Below, piece by piece: positions 1,062 to 24,766 of a DNA stretch of 50,764 nt (position 1 is its first letter; each line of letters starts with the position of its first letter). Made by a program: the position numbers and the translations under genes. Location of the stretch: assembly GCA_016223045.1 (NCBI GenBank), contig JACRPT010000055.1, positions 1 to 50,764 on the forward strand, given 5' to 3'. The notes under the pieces were generated by a model that worked only from the letters and a program-made list of their open reading frames with translations, was not told the DNA's origin and made no database searches. The DNA comes from Candidatus Eiseniibacteriota bacterium (GTDB lineage Bacteria; Eisenbacteria; RBG-16-71-46).

Positions 1062-1708
1062 CGACTCGGACCGGGACCGCGTTGGCAGCAGTCCTCCTGG
1101 GGGAATCCAAGCGGAAGGCTGCCACCGAGCGCGCTCAACCCGATCCGCGATCTGGGTTCATGCGTCAGTGGCGGTTGTGCGAGCTGGACGCGCACTGGCG
1201 GAGACCCAGGGGATTCGGTGCAGCTCGTTCGACCATGTCCCATCTCTCCGGGGAGGACGAAGGGACGTGGGGAAGCCAGGCTCCCTCGCGTTGCCAAGCC
1301 CTCCGCCGCCCCAGCCTCGCTGCGGCTTTCGCGGAAAGCGGGAGGACCCAGAGACGTGACAACGGAGTTGACACAGCTAGTGGTTGATGACCCGGTCGGG
1401 CCGCGGCCGAGCCAAACCCAACCACGCTTGGCAGTTGGCCGCTGTCTGCGCGGAACTCGAGAACACCGGGAGCCGCACGGGGAGAAAAGCGGCCGGCGCG
1501 AAGCCATGCCGTGCAGGCCTCCCTGCTTGGGGGGCGGTCGTCGGGCTCACGGCAACGCTGCTAGTGCGGCGAGGGCTCCACACGCCGGGCACCAGCTCGG
1601 GGATGCCCTCGCGCGTGCTATTCTGTTGCCGGGCTGATAGGGGGTTTCACCGGCAGCCAGCGTTGGCCGAGGACTTGCTTGATTCAACCGCGTGAAAGGA
1701 GGGGCACC
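1062..1708. other. Gene-poor stretch at the left edge of the accessory block
   Basis: No convincing gene was found in these 647 bases. The open frames here show no recognisable motif, signal peptide or ribosome-binding site. A small hairpin, GCTTTC-GCG-GAAAGC, lies near 1325-1340. The stretch marks the change from the GC-rich M20 gene to the lower-GC accessory genes, so it may hold an old insertion junction. I could not identify direct repeats that would define one. Confidence 0.5.
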
Positions 1709-2293
1709 ATGGAACAGCGGCCGAGTGCGATGGACCCCATCCGCTTCACGTTCGACGAGCGGAAGGCGACGGCGGCTGCGGCCGTCTTTCTCGTCGAACA
1801 TGGCGGGCGCATGCCCTACATGAAGCTCGTCAAGCTCCTCTACATGGCCGAACGGGAGAGCCTCCGAAGACATGGACGGCCTGTGTTTGGCGACAAGTAC
1901 TTCTCGCTCCCACTTGGCCCAGTGGTCAGCACAGTGCTCGATCTCATCAAGCGGGAAGCGGACCCCTTCGACGAGCACAGGAACGTGTGGAGTGCCCACG
2001 TGCAACGACAGGGCTGGGACGTGGCCCTCGCCACGCAGCCGGACCTCGGCTGCCTCAGCGACGCTGAGTTGGAGATGCTGCGCGAGATTGCGAGCGTTTT
2101 TCGTGCCCTCGACCAGTGGCAACTGAGCGACCTCACTCACGCGCTCCCGGAGTTCAGGGACCCGAGCGGCTCCCACCTGCCGATTTCCCCAGAGGACATT
2201 CTGCGCGCTCTCTCCAAGACCGACGAGGAGGTCGAGGAAGTCCGGGAGGACGCCATCGAGCGGAAGCACTTCGACTCCATCTTCGGGGCGTAG
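1709..2293 (+). CDS. Panacea-domain (SocA-like) antitoxin candidate
   Basis: A 194-residue protein carries the Panacea/DUF4065 hallmarks: the MKLVKLLYMAERESL helix near residues 34-48 and YFSLPLGPVVSTVLDLIK about 20 residues later, followed by an acidic helical C-terminus. Panacea proteins include SocA, the proteolytic adaptor antitoxin of Caulobacter, and many antitoxins paired with unrelated toxins. The ATG at 1709 is chosen because a strong AAGGAGG lies about 7 bases upstream; an upstream in-frame start at 1679 has no such signal. The next gene starts 3 bases after the stop, on the same strand, which fits a toxin-antitoxin operon. Antitoxin function is inferred from family and pairing. Confidence 0.82.
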   Translation: MEQRPSAMDPIRFTFDERKATAAAAVFLVEHGGRMPYMKLVKLLYMAERESLRRHGRPVFGDKYFSLPLGPVVSTVLDLIKREADPFDEHRNVWSAHVQRQGWDVALATQPDLGCLSDAELEMLREIASVFRALDQWQLSDLTHALPEFRDPSGSHLPISPEDILRALSKTDEEVEEVREDAIERKHFDSIFGA

Positions 2294-2710: not shown

Positions 2711-5700
2711 TCAGAGCGACAGCAGCGCCTTCACGGCCTCGTCGATTCGCTCCACCGTGGCCTTCGTCGCCTGCCGCACGAGCGCGCGACGGCGGGCGAG
2801 CGAAGCCGGGAGTTCGCCGGCCGCAACCACCTTCGCCGCCTGCGCTCGCGCCTCAGCGCCGAGGCGCGCAAGCTTCGCATGCGCCGGCTTGCTCGACTCG
2901 AAGAACGGAATCGGTGCCTCCAGGACCTTCTTGTGAATGTCGCGCTCGCCGATGAGGCCCATGCTCTGAAAGGGCTTGATGAGCCTGTCGAGCGAAGGCG
3001 CGTTCAGCACCGCGGCCAGGTAGTCCGCTTCCTCACGTGACCGGCAGGCCGCCCAATAGGTCTTGTGGTCCACGACGAACGATTCGGGCAGTTCTTGGCA
3101 GTCGACCGCGGCCGCGCTCAGGTTCGAGCCAGCCGCGTTGTAGAGCACGAAGAACCGGGAGCGCAGGCTCTGGTCGCTCAGCTTGTGCCCGTAGTCGAGC
3201 CACTGGTAGACGTTCTGCTTGCTCGCCTTCCCTCGACGCTTCTCCGCCCAGATGCGCTCGGCCTCCGCCATCCACTTCGCTGACTCGCGATACCCGCCGG
3301 CGCGTAGCTCCTCCGCCGTGAACACCCGGACGCCTTCGTCTGTGCCCTCAATGGGCAGGAATACGATGGGCGGCTCGACGAGCGCGAAGGGTAGCAGGTG
3401 CTTCGAGAGCGCAGACGTGAACAGGAACCGACCCTCGATGCGCCCCGTGAGCCGCACGTCGTCGTAGGGCGGTTTCGCCGACTCTGCCTGCTCCGGGTCC
3501 GTCTCGGCCCAGTAGACGCGCTCGGGGTCCACCTTGCCGGCGAGGTCCTTCACGCGCACGAAGTAGAAGCTGCGCGGAACGATCGTCGCACCCTGGCGAA
3601 ACAGCTTCGCGTAGGGGCTGGCCGGCGCAGCCGCCGCCGACTTCGCGGTGGTCGAGTATGCGGTTCGTGAGCCGAGATTGACGAGCTTTGCCGTTCGAGA
3701 GGTCTCCGAGAGCTGTGGCCTGGCCTCCGAGAGCGGGGCGTCGCGCACGAGGAGCTTCCCCTCGAACTCGACCGCCGGGAGGATCGAGTAGCTCGTCGGT
3801 CGCTCACCGCCGCCCTTCGGGTCAATCGCCACGTGTGTCGCCAGCACTACGCACGACGGCACGTTGAACAGGGGCGAGACACCGAACAGGTCCCAATAGG
3901 CGTCGAGCCGGATGGGCGCCGCGTGAGAGCCGTCGCGGAAGCTCGCGTGCTGGTCCGCGCTGAGCACGCTCCTCGGCATCACGAATCCGAGCCTCGCGCC
4001 CGGTCGCCCGAACGTGGACAGCGTGTGGACGAGGAACACGGTGGCAAGCTCCATCTGCGTCATGAGCTTCTGCGACTTCGGGGCGACCTTGTATTCCACG
4101 AGCGCCCGGCGCTTCACCTCCGCCTGGTAGTCGGGATCTGCGATGTAGCGGTACGAGAGCCACGGCGGATTGCCGACGACGAAGTCGAAGCGCGCTCGAA
4201 GCATGGCCGGCCGGTAGGCGTTCCGGATGATGAACGCCCAGATGGAGTTCTTCTGCCTGCGGATGAGGTCCGCCAGCTCGCTCGTGAACCGCCAGAGCGC
4301 GCGCACCATCATGTCGAAGTCGGCGCGCTCAGCCAGACTCGGAACCGAGCGTCGCAAGTAGACGCGCAGCGTCTTGTCCGATTCCTTGCTGCCAGCGGCG
4401 AACTCGGTCGCGACCTTCGTCGCCGCTTCGATGGCCGGGTCGAACAGGTCGGGGTCCTTGACGAGTTCTCCTGGAATCGAGACGGACCGGTCGCCGCCGA
4501 AGCGAATCTCGTAGCCCGGCGCGTCCCACATCGTCGTCTGCTTCACCTCGCTGGGGAGGAACAACGAGTCCGCGAGGTAGACGGGAATCTGTACGGGCCG
4601 CTTGGCCTGCCGAACCAGAGGGCTCACGGCGAGCACGTAGGTCGCCCGGGCGATGATGACGGCGAGCGGGTGGATGTCGATGCCGACGACGTGTTCCAGC
4701 ACGTTGCGAAGCTGCCCCGTCTCCCCGCGGTTGGCGTGAAGCAGGTGGGCGATGGAAGCGCGAAGGAAGCTGCCCGAACCGCACGTCGGGTCGAGAACGC
4801 TCACCCAGCCGCGCCCGGGCAGAAGCTCACGAACCACGCGCTCGCAGAGCCACTCGGGGGTGTAGTACTCGCCCAGGTCGTGACGGTCCTTCGGGTCGAC
4901 CAGCTCCTGGTACACGCCCTTGAGCACGTCCTCGTCGAGTCGGTCGAGACTGTAGGTGAGCACCTGCGCGAGCAGGCGCTCCCAGACGGGCGCGAGCAAC
5001 TGCGCCGCCTCTCGACGCCGGACCCACTGGAAGAAGTCGTCCTCGGTCAGGTTCTCGATGTTCCGCGCGCGAAAGAAGTCGCCGGCGAGGATGCTCCGTG
5101 CCTCGTCCTGCAGCGTGCCATCGAACTGGCCGCGAGAGAGTGCGCCCCACACGAGGAAACGGGCGATCGTCGCAAGGTACGTGTGCTTGAGGAACAACTC
5201 CTCGAGTTGCGTCCGCTGGCCGTTGTCGCCCAACTGGCCGTAGGTGACCGCGAGGTACCGCTGCCACGTCTCGAACGCGAGCTGCGGCTCGGGCAGCTTG
5301 CGCGCGATGCCCCACACTTCCCGCAGTGCAGCCATCGCGTCCGCGAACGCCGGGCTCGTCGCACCGAAGTCGTTCTTGAATCGGTCGGCCGTAGGGTTCT
5401 TGCCGCCGCCACCGAAAAGGACGCTCGTGAGCCACAACCAGAACTCCCTGACGGCGTCGTCCGACAGGTTGAGCGTGTGCAGGTGCTCCAACTCGATGTC
5501 GCTTGGTCGGGGTCGGGCCGCAGAAGCGCTGCGGAGCTGCGGTCTGTAGACCTCCCACACCGCACCATCGGCGGCGATGCACACGAGCGGGCGGTGAGGC
5601 AGCTTCTCCTCGCTCCAGATGGCCGCGGCGTACTCGCGAAGCTGGCCGAGCGCGATCTCCCCGGTCGCCTTGAGAGAGTTCTCGAACTCGAAGATGGCGT

Positions 5701-5950
5701 TGCCGTGGTAGGCGTCAATCTTCCGCCGCGCCCGTCCGCCATCGCCCGACTCAACGTGGACGAGCTTCTCGATTCCCTCGGCCACCTTGGCGACGGCATC
5801 CGGGAACAGCTCGCCGACGAGCCCCATGAACAGGTGCGTCTTGGCGCTCTCGTTGGGGAGGTCGCGAACGGCGCGGGCGAAGCGAAGCAACGCCGTGCGG
5901 GTCTTGGCATCCAGTCCGTCGGTCTGTTTCGGTCGAGTTCCGGCGTCCAT
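2711..5950 (-). CDS. One-chain restriction-modification enzyme (type IIG-like N6-adenine methyltransferase)
   Basis: A 1079-residue protein. An N-terminal PD-(D/E)XK-like segment has KIDAY near residue 76 and IFEFENSLK near residues 85-93, followed by a GQLREY helix as in type IIG nuclease domains. The usual EFK is EFE here, so the nuclease catalytic set is altered or uses the later lysine. The methyltransferase core has EYYTPEW near 365, the SAM motif DPTCGSGSFL near 385-395 and the catalytic NPPW near 593. The C-terminal 400 residues would hold target recognition. No separate specificity or restriction subunit is seen. It runs convergent to the toxin-antitoxin pair, and its GC content is lower than that of the flanks, which suggests a small transferred defence block. 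A PglX-like methylase without BREX partners is the main alternative. Confidence 0.82.
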   Translation of the reverse strand: MDAGTRPKQTDGLDAKTRTALLRFARAVRDLPNESAKTHLFMGLVGELFPDAVAKVAEGIEKLVHVESGDGGRARRKIDAYHGNAIFEFENSLKATGEIALGQLREYAAAIWSEEKLPHRPLVCIAADGAVWEVYRPQLRSASAARPRPSDIELEHLHTLNLSDDAVREFWLWLTSVLFGGGGKNPTADRFKNDFGATSPAFADAMAALREVWGIARKLPEPQLAFETWQRYLAVTYGQLGDNGQRTQLEELFLKHTYLATIARFLVWGALSRGQFDGTLQDEARSILAGDFFRARNIENLTEDDFFQWVRRREAAQLLAPVWERLLAQVLTYSLDRLDEDVLKGVYQELVDPKDRHDLGEYYTPEWLCERVVRELLPGRGWVSVLDPTCGSGSFLRASIAHLLHANRGETGQLRNVLEHVVGIDIHPLAVIIARATYVLAVSPLVRQAKRPVQIPVYLADSLFLPSEVKQTTMWDAPGYEIRFGGDRSVSIPGELVKDPDLFDPAIEAATKVATEFAAGSKESDKTLRVYLRRSVPSLAERADFDMMVRALWRFTSELADLIRRQKNSIWAFIIRNAYRPAMLRARFDFVVGNPPWLSYRYIADPDYQAEVKRRALVEYKVAPKSQKLMTQMELATVFLVHTLSTFGRPGARLGFVMPRSVLSADQHASFRDGSHAAPIRLDAYWDLFGVSPLFNVPSCVVLATHVAIDPKGGGERPTSYSILPAVEFEGKLLVRDAPLSEARPQLSETSRTAKLVNLGSRTAYSTTAKSAAAAPASPYAKLFRQGATIVPRSFYFVRVKDLAGKVDPERVYWAETDPEQAESAKPPYDDVRLTGRIEGRFLFTSALSKHLLPFALVEPPIVFLPIEGTDEGVRVFTAEELRAGGYRESAKWMAEAERIWAEKRRGKASKQNVYQWLDYGHKLSDQSLRSRFFVLYNAAGSNLSAAAVDCQELPESFVVDHKTYWAACRSREEADYLAAVLNAPSLDRLIKPFQSMGLIGERDIHKKVLEAPIPFFESSKPAHAKLARLGAEARAQAAKVVAAGELPASLARRRALVRQATKATVERIDEAVKALLSL

Positions 5951-21096: not shown

Positions 21097-21166
21097 TGCT
21101 CCAAGACATCGCAGATTGACATTGAGTGCGTCCGGCCCGGATGCAATCACAAACGCAGGTGGTCGG

Positions 21167-22447
21167 ATGAATCCGCCGAGCGGTCGACGTGACAAGTCCG
21201 CCCTCAAGGACCTCTTGCTCGTCGAATACCGCCTTGATCCAGGGGCTGTCGAGTACCTCGTTGAGGTGTCTCGGAACCTCGGCATTGATGCCGGTGCATC
21301 CGTCGTGTGTGACGTCCTTCGTGCTGACAGGCTGAGGACGGAGGTGCAGCGACTCAACCTCGCGGATTTTGTTCGACGAGCGTGCCGTGATGACTCTGTT
21401 GCTCGTGTCTTTAGGAAGACCTTGGTCCACAAGGTCGGCCGTTGCGTAGGCCATGAGCGTCGGTGGCTGTCGGCGCAGATAGGCCCGAGAGGGAGTCAAC
21501 GCACTGAGCCTCCGGCGTTTCTGGCGAAGCCTGCGCAACCCGGCGAACTCGAATTGACGGACCTGACGGGCAGCGTAGAGACACTTCCCGAGGTGCTCAA
21601 TCGAACTGCTCGGGTTCCGTCAGATGTCCCCTCATTGGCCATTCGTCTCGGGGATTTCACCTACGCGACGACCTTGGCGATTCTCGCTCAGTTCATCCTG
21701 TCCCGGCACCTTCAGGGGCAGTACTCGGTCGAGTGCGGCGCCGAGATGCATGCGTACTTGGAGCGGATTGGATTCGAAGATGTGTTGCGAAACCGACCTC
21801 GGACGATTTCTCCGGATCCGATGGACTGGGCCGTCGGACTCACACGCATCTCGACTGGGAGTGCGACCGAGACGGTGAGCGAGAAGATCGTCGACATCAT
21901 CGCGACGTTCGCCAATCTCGAAGCGCCTGAGCGGAGCTCGCTCTTCATTCTTGTGGCAGAGATGATCGAGAACATACACCGACATGCATGCGCGCCTGTC
22001 GATGGGTTCGCGGTGGCTCAGGTGTACCCGCGGAAACTGAAGATGGGCATCACGTTTGTGGACGGCGGGATCGGCATCCGAAAGAGCTTCGAGGAGGGCC
22101 AGCCTTCCGTCGACGTGAGTCAGTTGAAGGAAGATGCCGATTTCCTTGAGCGAGCATGTGATCTGCACGTGACAAGCAAGGCATCGGGACACAGCGGCTA
22201 CGGGCTCTACCTCTTGAGCCGTGTGGTCGCAAACAACCGGGGAACGTTTGTTCTGACGTCCGGCAGCGCCACCGTGGTAGCCTACTTGCGACGTGGAGAA
22301 GTCAGTTTTGACCGCTACGTGCACAGGCCTTGGCAGGGAACCATCGTGAGCGTGATTCTCGACCTCAATGAGCGAATCTCTACGCGCGATGTGTACAAGA
22401 CCATGCCAGTGCCTGAGGACTGGGAAATCGATGAACTTTTCGAGTGA
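21167..22447 (+). CDS. STAS-like/GHKL ATPase of a two-gene switch-like module
   Basis: A 426-residue protein unlike its neighbours in base composition, with clearly lower GC. The last third has the GHKL nucleotide-binding boxes: N-box EMIENIHRHA near 265, G1-type DGGIGI near 298 and G2-type GHSGYGLYL near 341. There is no histidine phospho-acceptor domain, so it resembles anti-sigma-factor kinases rather than sensor kinases. The middle part, with LAIRLGDFTYAT and MHAYLERIGFEDVL, has the order of a STAS-like fold. The first 120 residues (LLLVEYRLDPGAVEYLV...) are unrecognised. It overlaps the next gene by 17 bases. Inferred role: partner switching or sensing; a defence role is possible. The ATG at 21167 follows an AGGTGG. 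Confidence 0.75.
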   Translation: MNPPSGRRDKSALKDLLLVEYRLDPGAVEYLVEVSRNLGIDAGASVVCDVLRADRLRTEVQRLNLADFVRRACRDDSVARVFRKTLVHKVGRCVGHERRWLSAQIGPRGSQRTEPPAFLAKPAQPGELELTDLTGSVETLPEVLNRTARVPSDVPSLAIRLGDFTYATTLAILAQFILSRHLQGQYSVECGAEMHAYLERIGFEDVLRNRPRTISPDPMDWAVGLTRISTGSATETVSEKIVDIIATFANLEAPERSSLFILVAEMIENIHRHACAPVDGFAVAQVYPRKLKMGITFVDGGIGIRKSFEEGQPSVDVSQLKEDADFLERACDLHVTSKASGHSGYGLYLLSRVVANNRGTFVLTSGSATVVAYLRRGEVSFDRYVHRPWQGTIVSVILDLNERISTRDVYKTMPVPEDWEIDELFE

Positions 22448-22763
22448 GAGAAGCCTTGACCCTGTGACTATTCTCGGCGCCCGCGTTTTGGCAACACGCG
22501 ACCAGGGCAAGAAGCTTCGCGAGTTGGCAATCGGGAGGCTTCGGCAACCTGGGGTGCTGGAGGTTAGTCTCGAGCGCGTTGAGGCTGTGTCGCCGTCGTT
22601 CGCTGATGAGTTCTTCGGCGGTCTGATGGAAGAGCTCGGTAGGGACGAGTTTCTTCGACGAATCCGTGTCGGGAACGCTTCAGAGGAGATTCGCCTGCTG
22701 ATTCGGAAGGTGGTCTCACACCGAGAGCAATCGCCGCATACCAAGCGATCGGGGTCGGACTGA
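22431..22763 (+). CDS. STAS-like DUF4325 protein
   Basis: A 110-residue protein that starts inside the end of the GHKL gene. Its centre, VLEVSLERVEAVSPSFADEFFGGLMEELG, is the DUF4325 signature: a strand, then the S-P-S-F-A-D-E-F turn. A second strand, FLRRIRVGNAS, follows. STAS-like proteins often act as anti-anti-sigma factors, being phosphorylated by a GHKL kinase on a Ser or Thr; here the Ser residues in SPSF are natural candidates. The 17-base overlap implies that the two proteins are made in a fixed ratio and act together. Low GC is shared with the partner. Confidence 0.78.
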   Translation: MNFSSERSLDPVTILGARVLATRDQGKKLRELAIGRLRQPGVLEVSLERVEAVSPSFADEFFGGLMEELGRDEFLRRIRVGNASEEIRLLIRKVVSHREQSPHTKRSGSD

Positions 22764-22863
22764 CGGGGTGGCCCCCGACGCTCGCTTCCCGCGCCGCAGC
22801 GCGGCGCCCTCGTGCATGCCACGCGGCGTGGGTGATCGGGTGCTGCGCCCCAAATCTTGGACA

Positions 22864-22893
22864 GCGTTGACCCCCAGATTGTGTGGTCAGCGC
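22864..22893. promoter_or_regulatory. Inverted repeat upstream of the DUF362 gene
   Basis: GCGTTGACC at 22864-22872 and GGTCAGCGC at 22885-22893 form an inverted repeat with one mismatch and a 12-base centre. It lies about 45 bases upstream of the start at 22940. It could be an operator, or the end of a lost mobile element at the right edge of the low-GC insertion. Confidence 0.3.
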
Positions 22894-22939
22894 CGCCGCG
22901 GCAACGCGGCGCTCCGTCCGTGCCGGCAGGAGCACCGAG

Positions 22940-24766
22940 ATGAGCCGCCCTCGCACCGGCCACGCGCACGCCCCGCGCGCGGGATCGCGGGGGGCCCCGG
23001 GCGCCCCGGGACCCCGTCCCCCTCATGCCGCGACCAGGTCCTGCTGGAGCGCCTGGCTCCTCGCCCTCCCCGCGCTCCTCTGGCTCGCCGTCCGCTCGGG
23101 CAGCAAGCCGTCGCGCCTGAGCTACCCGTGCCAGCGGGCCGCGCTGGGGAGCGTCGCCCTCCTGCTCGCGCCCGCGCTCGCCCCGGCGCTCCTCGCCCTG
23201 GTCCGCCCGCTCCGGAAGCGGTGGGCTCGTGCCTCGGCCGCCGCGTGCGTCGCCGTCGCGGTCGCGATCGCGGCGGGCACGTCGCCGGGCCCGGCGGCGC
23301 CCGGACGTGGTCCCGCGCGCGACACGGCGCGCCCGGGCTCCGCGGCGCCCGGCCGGGCCGCCGCCTTGATCTCCGAGATCTTCGCGGTCCGGCAAGCGGG
23401 CGGGCCGTCGGGCGATCACCACCTGGGAGTGGACCAGCTCCTCGCCTGCATGGCGCTCGACTCGCTGTGCTTCTACCGGTCGGCGCAGGCCGGCTTCGAA
23501 CGCGGCCCGGACGGGATCGTGAGGGCGGACGGCGTGGTCCTCATCAAGGTCAACGCCCAGTGGCCCGAGCGCGGCGGGACCAACACCGACGTGCTCAAGG
23601 GGCTGATCGCCCGGATCCTCGAGCATCCCGACGGCTTCACCGGCGAGGTCGTGGTGGTCGAGAACACCCAGGGGGCGGGCACGCTCGACTGGGCCCAGGC
23701 CAACGCCGAGGACCACGCCCAGTCCGCGCAGGACGTGGTGGATCACTTCGCGGCCCTGGGATGGCCGGTCTCGAGCTGCCTGTGGGACTCGCTGCGCACC
23801 CGGAGCGTGGGCGAGTACGCGGGCGGCGACCCGGACAACGGCTACGTGGTCGGCGACTGGCAGGCCGACGTCCAGATGAAGGTCTCCTATCCCAAGTTCC
23901 GCACCGTGCGCGGGCGCCGCGTGAGCCTGAAATACGGGCTCTGGGATCCGGCGGCGGGCGCGTACGACGACAGCCTGCTCACCTTCCTCAACCTGCCGGT
24001 GCTGAAGTGCCATGCGGGCTACGGGGTCACCGCGGCGGTCAAGCACCACGTCGGCACGATGACCACCGCGCTCTCCACCTACACCCACGGCGCGGTGCGC
24101 TACGGCGGGCTCGGCGCGTTCCTCGGCGAGGTGCGGCTGCCCGACCTCAACATCCTCGACGCCATCTACGTCCTGGCGATCCCGGGGGCCGGTCCCGCGG
24201 CGAGCTACGCGCAGGCCACGCCAGCGGACTGGCTGCTCGCGGGGCGCGACCCGGTGGCGCTGGACATGTGGGCGACCGCGAACGTCCTGGTCCCGGCCAT
24301 CACCGCGAACGGGTACACGAGCTACCCGATGCAGGATCCCGGGAACCCGTCGAGCATCTTCCGCACCTATCTCGACGCCAGCATGTCGGAGCTGCTCGAG
24401 CGCGGCCGCACGGTGACGAACGACCTCTGCCAGATCGACGCCCACGTCTGCGACGGAGACTCCATCCGGGTGGATCCCCCGGGCGGGACGCCGCACGGCA
24501 CGACCCTGAGCTTCCCGAACCCGACGGCCGCGGCCGTGACGATCCGCTTCGATCTCCCCGCATCGGGTGAAGTGAGGCTCGAAGTGTTCGATGCGGCCGG
24601 CGCGCTGCTGCGGACGGTCCGGCGGTCCCTCGGGGCGGGGCCCGGCCGCGAGCTGTCCTGGGACGGCCGGGACGACGCGGGGCGGGCCGTGGCCTGCGGC
24701 AGCTACTTCTATCGCGTGAGTGCCGCGGGCTTCGCCGCGACGGGGAAGATCGTCACGGTGAAGTGA
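22940..24766 (+). CDS. Membrane-anchored DUF362 protein with FlgD-like tail
   Basis: A 608-residue protein. The first 115 residues contain two or three hydrophobic helices (WSAWLLALPALLWLAV, VALLLAPALAPALLALV, AACVAVAVAIAAG). Residues of about 150-480 form a DUF362 domain, including VVLIKVNAQWPERGGTN, the FLNLPVLKCHAGYGVTAAVK segment and DWLLAGRDPVALDMWA near its end. The last 85 residues are a FlgD-like tail (FPNPTAAAVTIRFDLP, VRLEVFDAAGALLRTV). DUF362 proteins are often found with iron-sulfur or redox functions, but no ferredoxin cysteine cluster is visible. The ATG at 22940 follows AGGAGCACCGAG; an earlier start at 22883 is less likely. Confidence 0.8.
   Translation: MSRPRTGHAHAPRAGSRGAPGAPGPRPPHAATRSCWSAWLLALPALLWLAVRSGSKPSRLSYPCQRAALGSVALLLAPALAPALLALVRPLRKRWARASAAACVAVAVAIAAGTSPGPAAPGRGPARDTARPGSAAPGRAAALISEIFAVRQAGGPSGDHHLGVDQLLACMALDSLCFYRSAQAGFERGPDGIVRADGVVLIKVNAQWPERGGTNTDVLKGLIARILEHPDGFTGEVVVVENTQGAGTLDWAQANAEDHAQSAQDVVDHFAALGWPVSSCLWDSLRTRSVGEYAGGDPDNGYVVGDWQADVQMKVSYPKFRTVRGRRVSLKYGLWDPAAGAYDDSLLTFLNLPVLKCHAGYGVTAAVKHHVGTMTTALSTYTHGAVRYGGLGAFLGEVRLPDLNILDAIYVLAIPGAGPAASYAQATPADWLLAGRDPVALDMWATANVLVPAITANGYTSYPMQDPGNPSSIFRTYLDASMSELLERGRTVTNDLCQIDAHVCDGDSIRVDPPGGTPHGTTLSFPNPTAAAVTIRFDLPASGEVRLEVFDAAGALLRTVRRSLGAGPGRELSWDGRDDAGRAVACGSYFYRVSAAGFAATGKIVTVK

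Follow-up and report, generated by a model that had tools for sequence, protein, structure and literature searches.

CapKS and VapKSC, the closest described relatives of the pair analysed here, are systems in which the controlled gene or genes are encoded next door (Chambers et al. 2026, EMBO J; PMC13373217). In CapK-CapS, which is located upstream of immune operons, an HTH-STAS-GHKL kinase is activated by ssDNA and phosphorylates a STAS-wHTH repressor, and the N-terminal HTH of CapK is dispensable (PMC13373217). In VapK-VapS-VapC, the same kind of kinase releases the PIN toxin from its STAS antitoxin; VapKSC provides approximately 2-log protection against phage Bas42, and the Phe residue at the proposed ssDNA site of Escherichia VapK is needed for protection (PMC13373217).

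The window (the whole 50,764-nucleotide stretch of DNA that was analysed) contains a two-gene locus that is probably a horizontally acquired, stand-alone phosphorylation switch of the CapK/CapS-VapK/VapS kind, with an unlinked partner and a probable role in phage infection or DNA damage. The original prediction regarded this pair as the strongest candidate in the window for an undescribed system, which does not hold for the parent kind, already published in 2026 as CapKS and VapKSC; it is the stand-alone variant that is absent from the systems described in that work (PMC13373217).

Gene 1 (21167..22447, + strand) is an intact open reading frame running from an ATG at 21167 to a stop at 22447 and encodes P0001, a predicted STAS-GHKL protein kinase of 426 residues. 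Gene 2 (22431..22763, + strand), also intact, starts with an ATG at 22431 that is preceded by a GAGGA Shine-Dalgarno-like site, and encodes P0002, a DUF4325 STAS-like protein of 110 residues. The two genes overlap by 17 nt (22431..22447, + strand), as read directly from the sequence. The GC content is 58.9% for gene 1 and 58.3% for gene 2, and their GC3 values are 0.69 and 0.65, whereas those of the flanking atp genes and of the gene that follows the pair are 0.94-0.98. The lowest-GC 1.6-kb bin of the window, which starts at approximately 21101-21151, is that of the pair (0.59, compared with a window mean of 0.712 and an sd of 0.032). The module as first proposed, with its 17-base overlap, the SPSFADEFFGG stretch in the small protein and a base composition unlike both flanks, is therefore borne out. 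Its proposed insertion after atpC stands as to location, but an empty site could not be demonstrated: 18 of the 20 genomes searched within the family have atpC, and the comparison at atpC is uninformative because its right neighbour differs between genera.

Approximately 80 bp to the right of the end of gene 2 begins an IS-end relic of about 55 bp (22842..22896, unstranded), which is approximately 93% identical to two copies in this genome, each at the end of a contig (G000:C163 and C108). The next gene to the right of the pair (22883-24766) encodes a DUF362/FlgD_ig protein according to Pfam, and the downstream genes scanned with Pfam and PADLOC include no toxin, immune operon or defence gene. 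Elsewhere in the window, a type IIG restriction enzyme-methyltransferase-like gene (2711-5950, - strand; PADLOC PDLC03630, E 7e-71) lies approximately 15 kb from the pair, and a protein with a Panacea (SocA-like antitoxin) domain is encoded at 1679-2293 (+ strand).

Residues 1-125 of P0001 form a helical extension in which no fold is recognised by AlphaFold, Pfam or comparison with the PDB; this segment of approximately 125 residues is predicted by AlphaFold to be all-helical, with confidence values under 50 over most of its length, and has no HTH match in Pfam or the PDB. The extension is followed by a STAS domain (approximately residues 125-210; 21539..21796, + strand), delimited from the AlphaFold secondary structure with pLDDT values of 72-91 over most of its length, and then by a GHKL ATPase/kinase domain (approximately residues 222-400; 21830..22366, + strand), which is defined by its boxes, AlphaFold and Foldseek. 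The residues of the N box (E265, N269 and H273), the G1 box (D299-G301-G303) and the G2 box (G344-G346-L347) are invariant or near-invariant in the alignment of homologues. No HisKA domain is detected in P0001 by Pfam, and the phospho-acceptor domain of two-component histidine kinases is thus absent, with a STAS domain preceding the GHKL domain. The original prediction had already described the three boxes without a phospho-acceptor His and the unrecognised first 120 residues, and both descriptions remain accurate after the Pfam, PDB and AlphaFold analyses.

P0001 matches phrog_3364 (E 6.5e-26), and its match to Pfam HATPase_c_2 is sub-threshold (E 0.031). In a Foldseek search with the AlphaFold model of P0001 (16 sequences, pTM 0.69), no match is obtained at E 0.001 or better; SpoIIAB (1th8_A) has the best target-normalised TM score among the matches listed (TMt 0.65, E 1.1e-2). 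F164 of P0001 aligns with a column that is W or F in the VapK relatives examined and that appears to correspond to the ssDNA-site Phe column of Escherichia VapK, and P0001 would accordingly resemble VapKSC in having an aromatic residue at the proposed ssDNA-contact column. The nearest kinase relative of P0001, L020 from Phycisphaerae, has a Gln at this aromatic position. An N-terminal domain common to P0001 and L020 was suspected from the alignment and was rejected, as BLASTP shows no similarity.

The C-terminus of P0001 (approximately 22409-22444) is acidic and aromatic, with the sequence PEDWEIDELFE, and a VapK relative ends in SEEDLF. Kinases with a separate STAS partner often end in this manner, with a mean net acidity of 1.56 over the last 14 residues compared with 0.03 (sd 0.29) for random segments. 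Such a tail may mimic DNA and thereby be autoinhibitory, or it could partly be an imprint of the ribosome site that serves the following gene.

P0002 matches DUF4325 (PF14213) with 42 bits and an E value of 7.8e-11, which exceeds the curated 23-bit cut-off. PF14213 and phrog_3364, matched by P0002 and P0001, respectively, are sequence families only, and no mechanism is assigned in them. A profile built from 12 relatives of P0002 has a sole significant match in the PDB, which is Escherichia VapS (9z7o_A, E 1.6e-9), and an hhalign comparison of P0002-type with VapS relatives gives 97%. A difference between the two proteins lies at the acceptor site: the S48 column of VapS is P55 in P0002, with hydroxyl residues at -1 (S54) and +1 (S56), and the motif that follows within SPSFADEFFGG is F57-A-D-E60 (F-x-D-E) in place of the F-(L/F)-N of VapS. 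The STAS match of P0002 stops at residue 98, only 12 residues before the C-terminus, which leaves no wHTH.

Four relatives (L012, L024, L025 and L031) are single-chain STAS-GHKL-DUF4325 fusions. The model of the L024 fusion (pTM 0.84) contains a SpoIIAB-like domain (1til_E, TMt 0.73) and also a SpoIIAA-like domain (1thn_B, TMt 0.67, rmsd 2.5). Natural fusions of this kind are evidence that the kinase and STAS parts act on each other, and the best-supported assignment, drawn from homology and the fusions, is that P0001 is the likely kinase and P0002 its partner. Another single-chain architecture, winged-helix-GHKL-DUF4325 (L119, L126, L129 and others), mostly carries G-Q-(A/G)-F-(A/V)-D-E; these chains mostly have no Ser or Thr at the acceptor site and therefore may work without phosphorylation.

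A comparison with the described systems reveals likenesses and differences in each case. In the window pair as in VapKSC, the gene for a STAS-GHKL kinase precedes that for a small DUF4325/VapS-like STAS protein, and the genes overlap or are tightly spaced, whereas no VapC/PIN gene accompanies the window pair and P0001 carries an extra N-terminus of 125 residues. CapK-CapS also comprises a STAS-GHKL kinase and a STAS partner, with an extension N-terminal to the STAS domain of the kinase; however, the extension of P0001 is not recognisable as an HTH, P0002 has no winged-helix domain, and no immune operon lies downstream. The pair shares with SpoIIAB/SpoIIAA and RsbW/RsbV the fold of a GHKL Ser kinase without HisKA and that of a STAS antagonist, and by analogy phosphorylation of a STAS Ser residue would be expected. 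In contrast to these pairs, it has no adjacent sigma factor, its kinase has a STAS domain of its own, and it is mobile and patchily distributed across phyla and phages.

Gene 1 is absent from all 58 other genomes of a 59-genome search, including 19 of the same family, and a kinase profile run against 385 genomes, most of them distant, detects relatives of the kinase in 33. Relatives were sought through the DUF4325 motif and through an alignment of a narrower set of kinases, the broad kinase alignment having given no searchable stretch, and a scan of viral contigs with the single P0001 sequence gave no match. Pairs are present in Streptococcus phage LYGO9 (between the lysin and the integrase), in Marinitoga phage MPV1 (between the repressor and the integrase) and in Clostridioides and Bacteroides phages, and Francisella phage KIRK has a DUF4325 gene between its repressor and integrase. 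In the inserted fragment IFa of the archaeal prophage Methanothermobacter psiM100 (L008), the kinase, the STAS protein and the PADLOC defence candidate PDC-M11A are arranged in a row. Plasmid-borne pairs occur beside IS elements, one of them with a sigma-like HTH gene upstream. At two loci (L030 and L032), the pair lies directly 3' of a type I restriction subunit, and L030 also has a GmrSD gene; defence-gene neighbours are found at only part of the related loci. Restriction neighbours and cargo positions in phages suggest a defence role.

Two further candidates were set aside. Three ORFs that precede the L020 pair (489, 248 and 125 aa) were considered as operon partners, but they have no family match, look spurious and were not counted. 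A PADLOC match to DrmA (PDLC02567) was rejected as an indication of DISARM: the DrmA proteins of the 385 genomes match this model only from approximately position 550-646 onward, and the window match therefore falls in an N-terminal region that those proteins do not have. The first approximately 400 positions of PDLC02567 include a STAS-GHKL-STAS module that matches both window proteins. This N-terminus may stem from a rare fusion or from contamination of the model, and such kinases may be mislabelled as DISARM.

The patchy distribution, the carriage by phages and plasmids, the low GC content and the nearby IS relic are the basis on which the window pair is judged to be horizontally acquired and mobile. 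The relatives occupy varied sites (phages, plasmids and, in some cases, the neighbourhood of restriction genes) rather than one fixed place, and the earlier proposal of a mobile, self-contained pair of the SpoIIAB/SpoIIAA type is supported by the fold, the profile homology to VapS and the fusions in addition to this patchiness and phage and plasmid carriage. Its statement that no sigma factor is adjacent also agrees with the window genes examined, among which no sigma factor gene is present, and with the annotated relatives, which have no sigma factor beside them except in the one plasmid case.

The homology of P0002 to VapS and the STAS-GHKL layout common to P0001 and the VapK relatives would be expected of a decayed VapKSC, in which the kinase and the STAS antitoxin are kept and the VapC toxin gene is lost. 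This explanation is nevertheless very unlikely, considering the neighbours of related pairs, the kinase tree and the acceptor site. In a survey of 42 unfused pairs, all followed by 400 bp of sequence or more, none of the 22 pairs with F-x-D-E adjoins a PIN gene, compared with 10 of the 20 pairs without F-x-D-E (Fisher p=1.3e-4, a value that ignores kinship, the effective number being smaller because several loci are related). In the gene maps, most F-x-D-E pairs are without any closely spaced downstream gene on the same strand. The maximum-likelihood tree places P0001 beside L020 (99/91) and not in the supported clade of PIN-linked VapK kinases (97/84), and P0002 has Pro at the column of the VapS acceptor. 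Judged by these sequence characters, the window pair is of the stand-alone type rather than a decay product.

A partner switch of the SpoIIAB/RsbW type, with its sigma factor encoded elsewhere on the chromosome, is likewise most improbable. The SpoIIAB-like and SpoIIAA-like folds in the models and the sigma-like HTH gene of one plasmid pair are consistent with such a switch, but that plasmid is the only instance among the annotated relatives and the window genes examined, the kinase has the extra STAS domain seen in CapK and VapK, and related pairs are cargo of phages from unrelated hosts. CapK provides the precedent of an N-terminal HTH (PMC13373217) for a transcriptional regulator similar to CapKS, in which the all-helical N-terminal extension of P0001, rather than P0002, would contact DNA. 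The lack of an HTH match in Pfam or the PDB, the low model confidence over most of the segment, the DUF362/FlgD_ig gene in the place of a downstream immune operon and the dispensability of the HTH of CapK (PMC13373217) make this regulator improbable. A complete abortive-infection or superinfection-exclusion module, in which P0001 or P0002 strikes a host or phage target directly, would fit the stand-alone occurrence at cargo positions in temperate phages and beside restriction genes in Flavobacteria; it is unlikely, as the kinase is the sole enzymatic domain and nothing in the pair resembles a toxin.

In the stand-alone phosphorylation switch that is preferred here, the signal would be received by P0001's own STAS domain and the adjoining groove, and by analogy with CapK it is probably single-stranded or damaged DNA. 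Activated P0001 would then phosphorylate P0002 where helix 2 begins, on Ser54 or Ser56, and this may change the binding partner of P0002. Since P0002 lacks both a DNA-binding domain and an adjacent toxin gene, it would exert its effect by binding or releasing a partner whose gene lies elsewhere. The setting is most likely a phage or DNA-damage stress response, and the ATP-dependent defence pair of the original prediction is plausible by kinship with CapKS and VapKSC, although the neighbouring effectors by which those systems are defined are missing here. Tentatively, the F-x-D-E stand-alone pairs may form a class of their own among phage-stress switches, widely mobile and with a STAS protein whose conserved cellular target is reached in trans; if so, this action would explain both the lack of a partner gene and the carriage by temperate phages and plasmids across phyla.

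The sequence signature, F-x-D-E as opposed to F-(L/F)-N, told the stand-alone form from the toxin-linked form in the survey. Kinase switches of the CapK/VapK kind travel as phage cargo, and from a common subtype that lacks a target next to it, it follows that the output acts in trans or that there is a new conserved partner.
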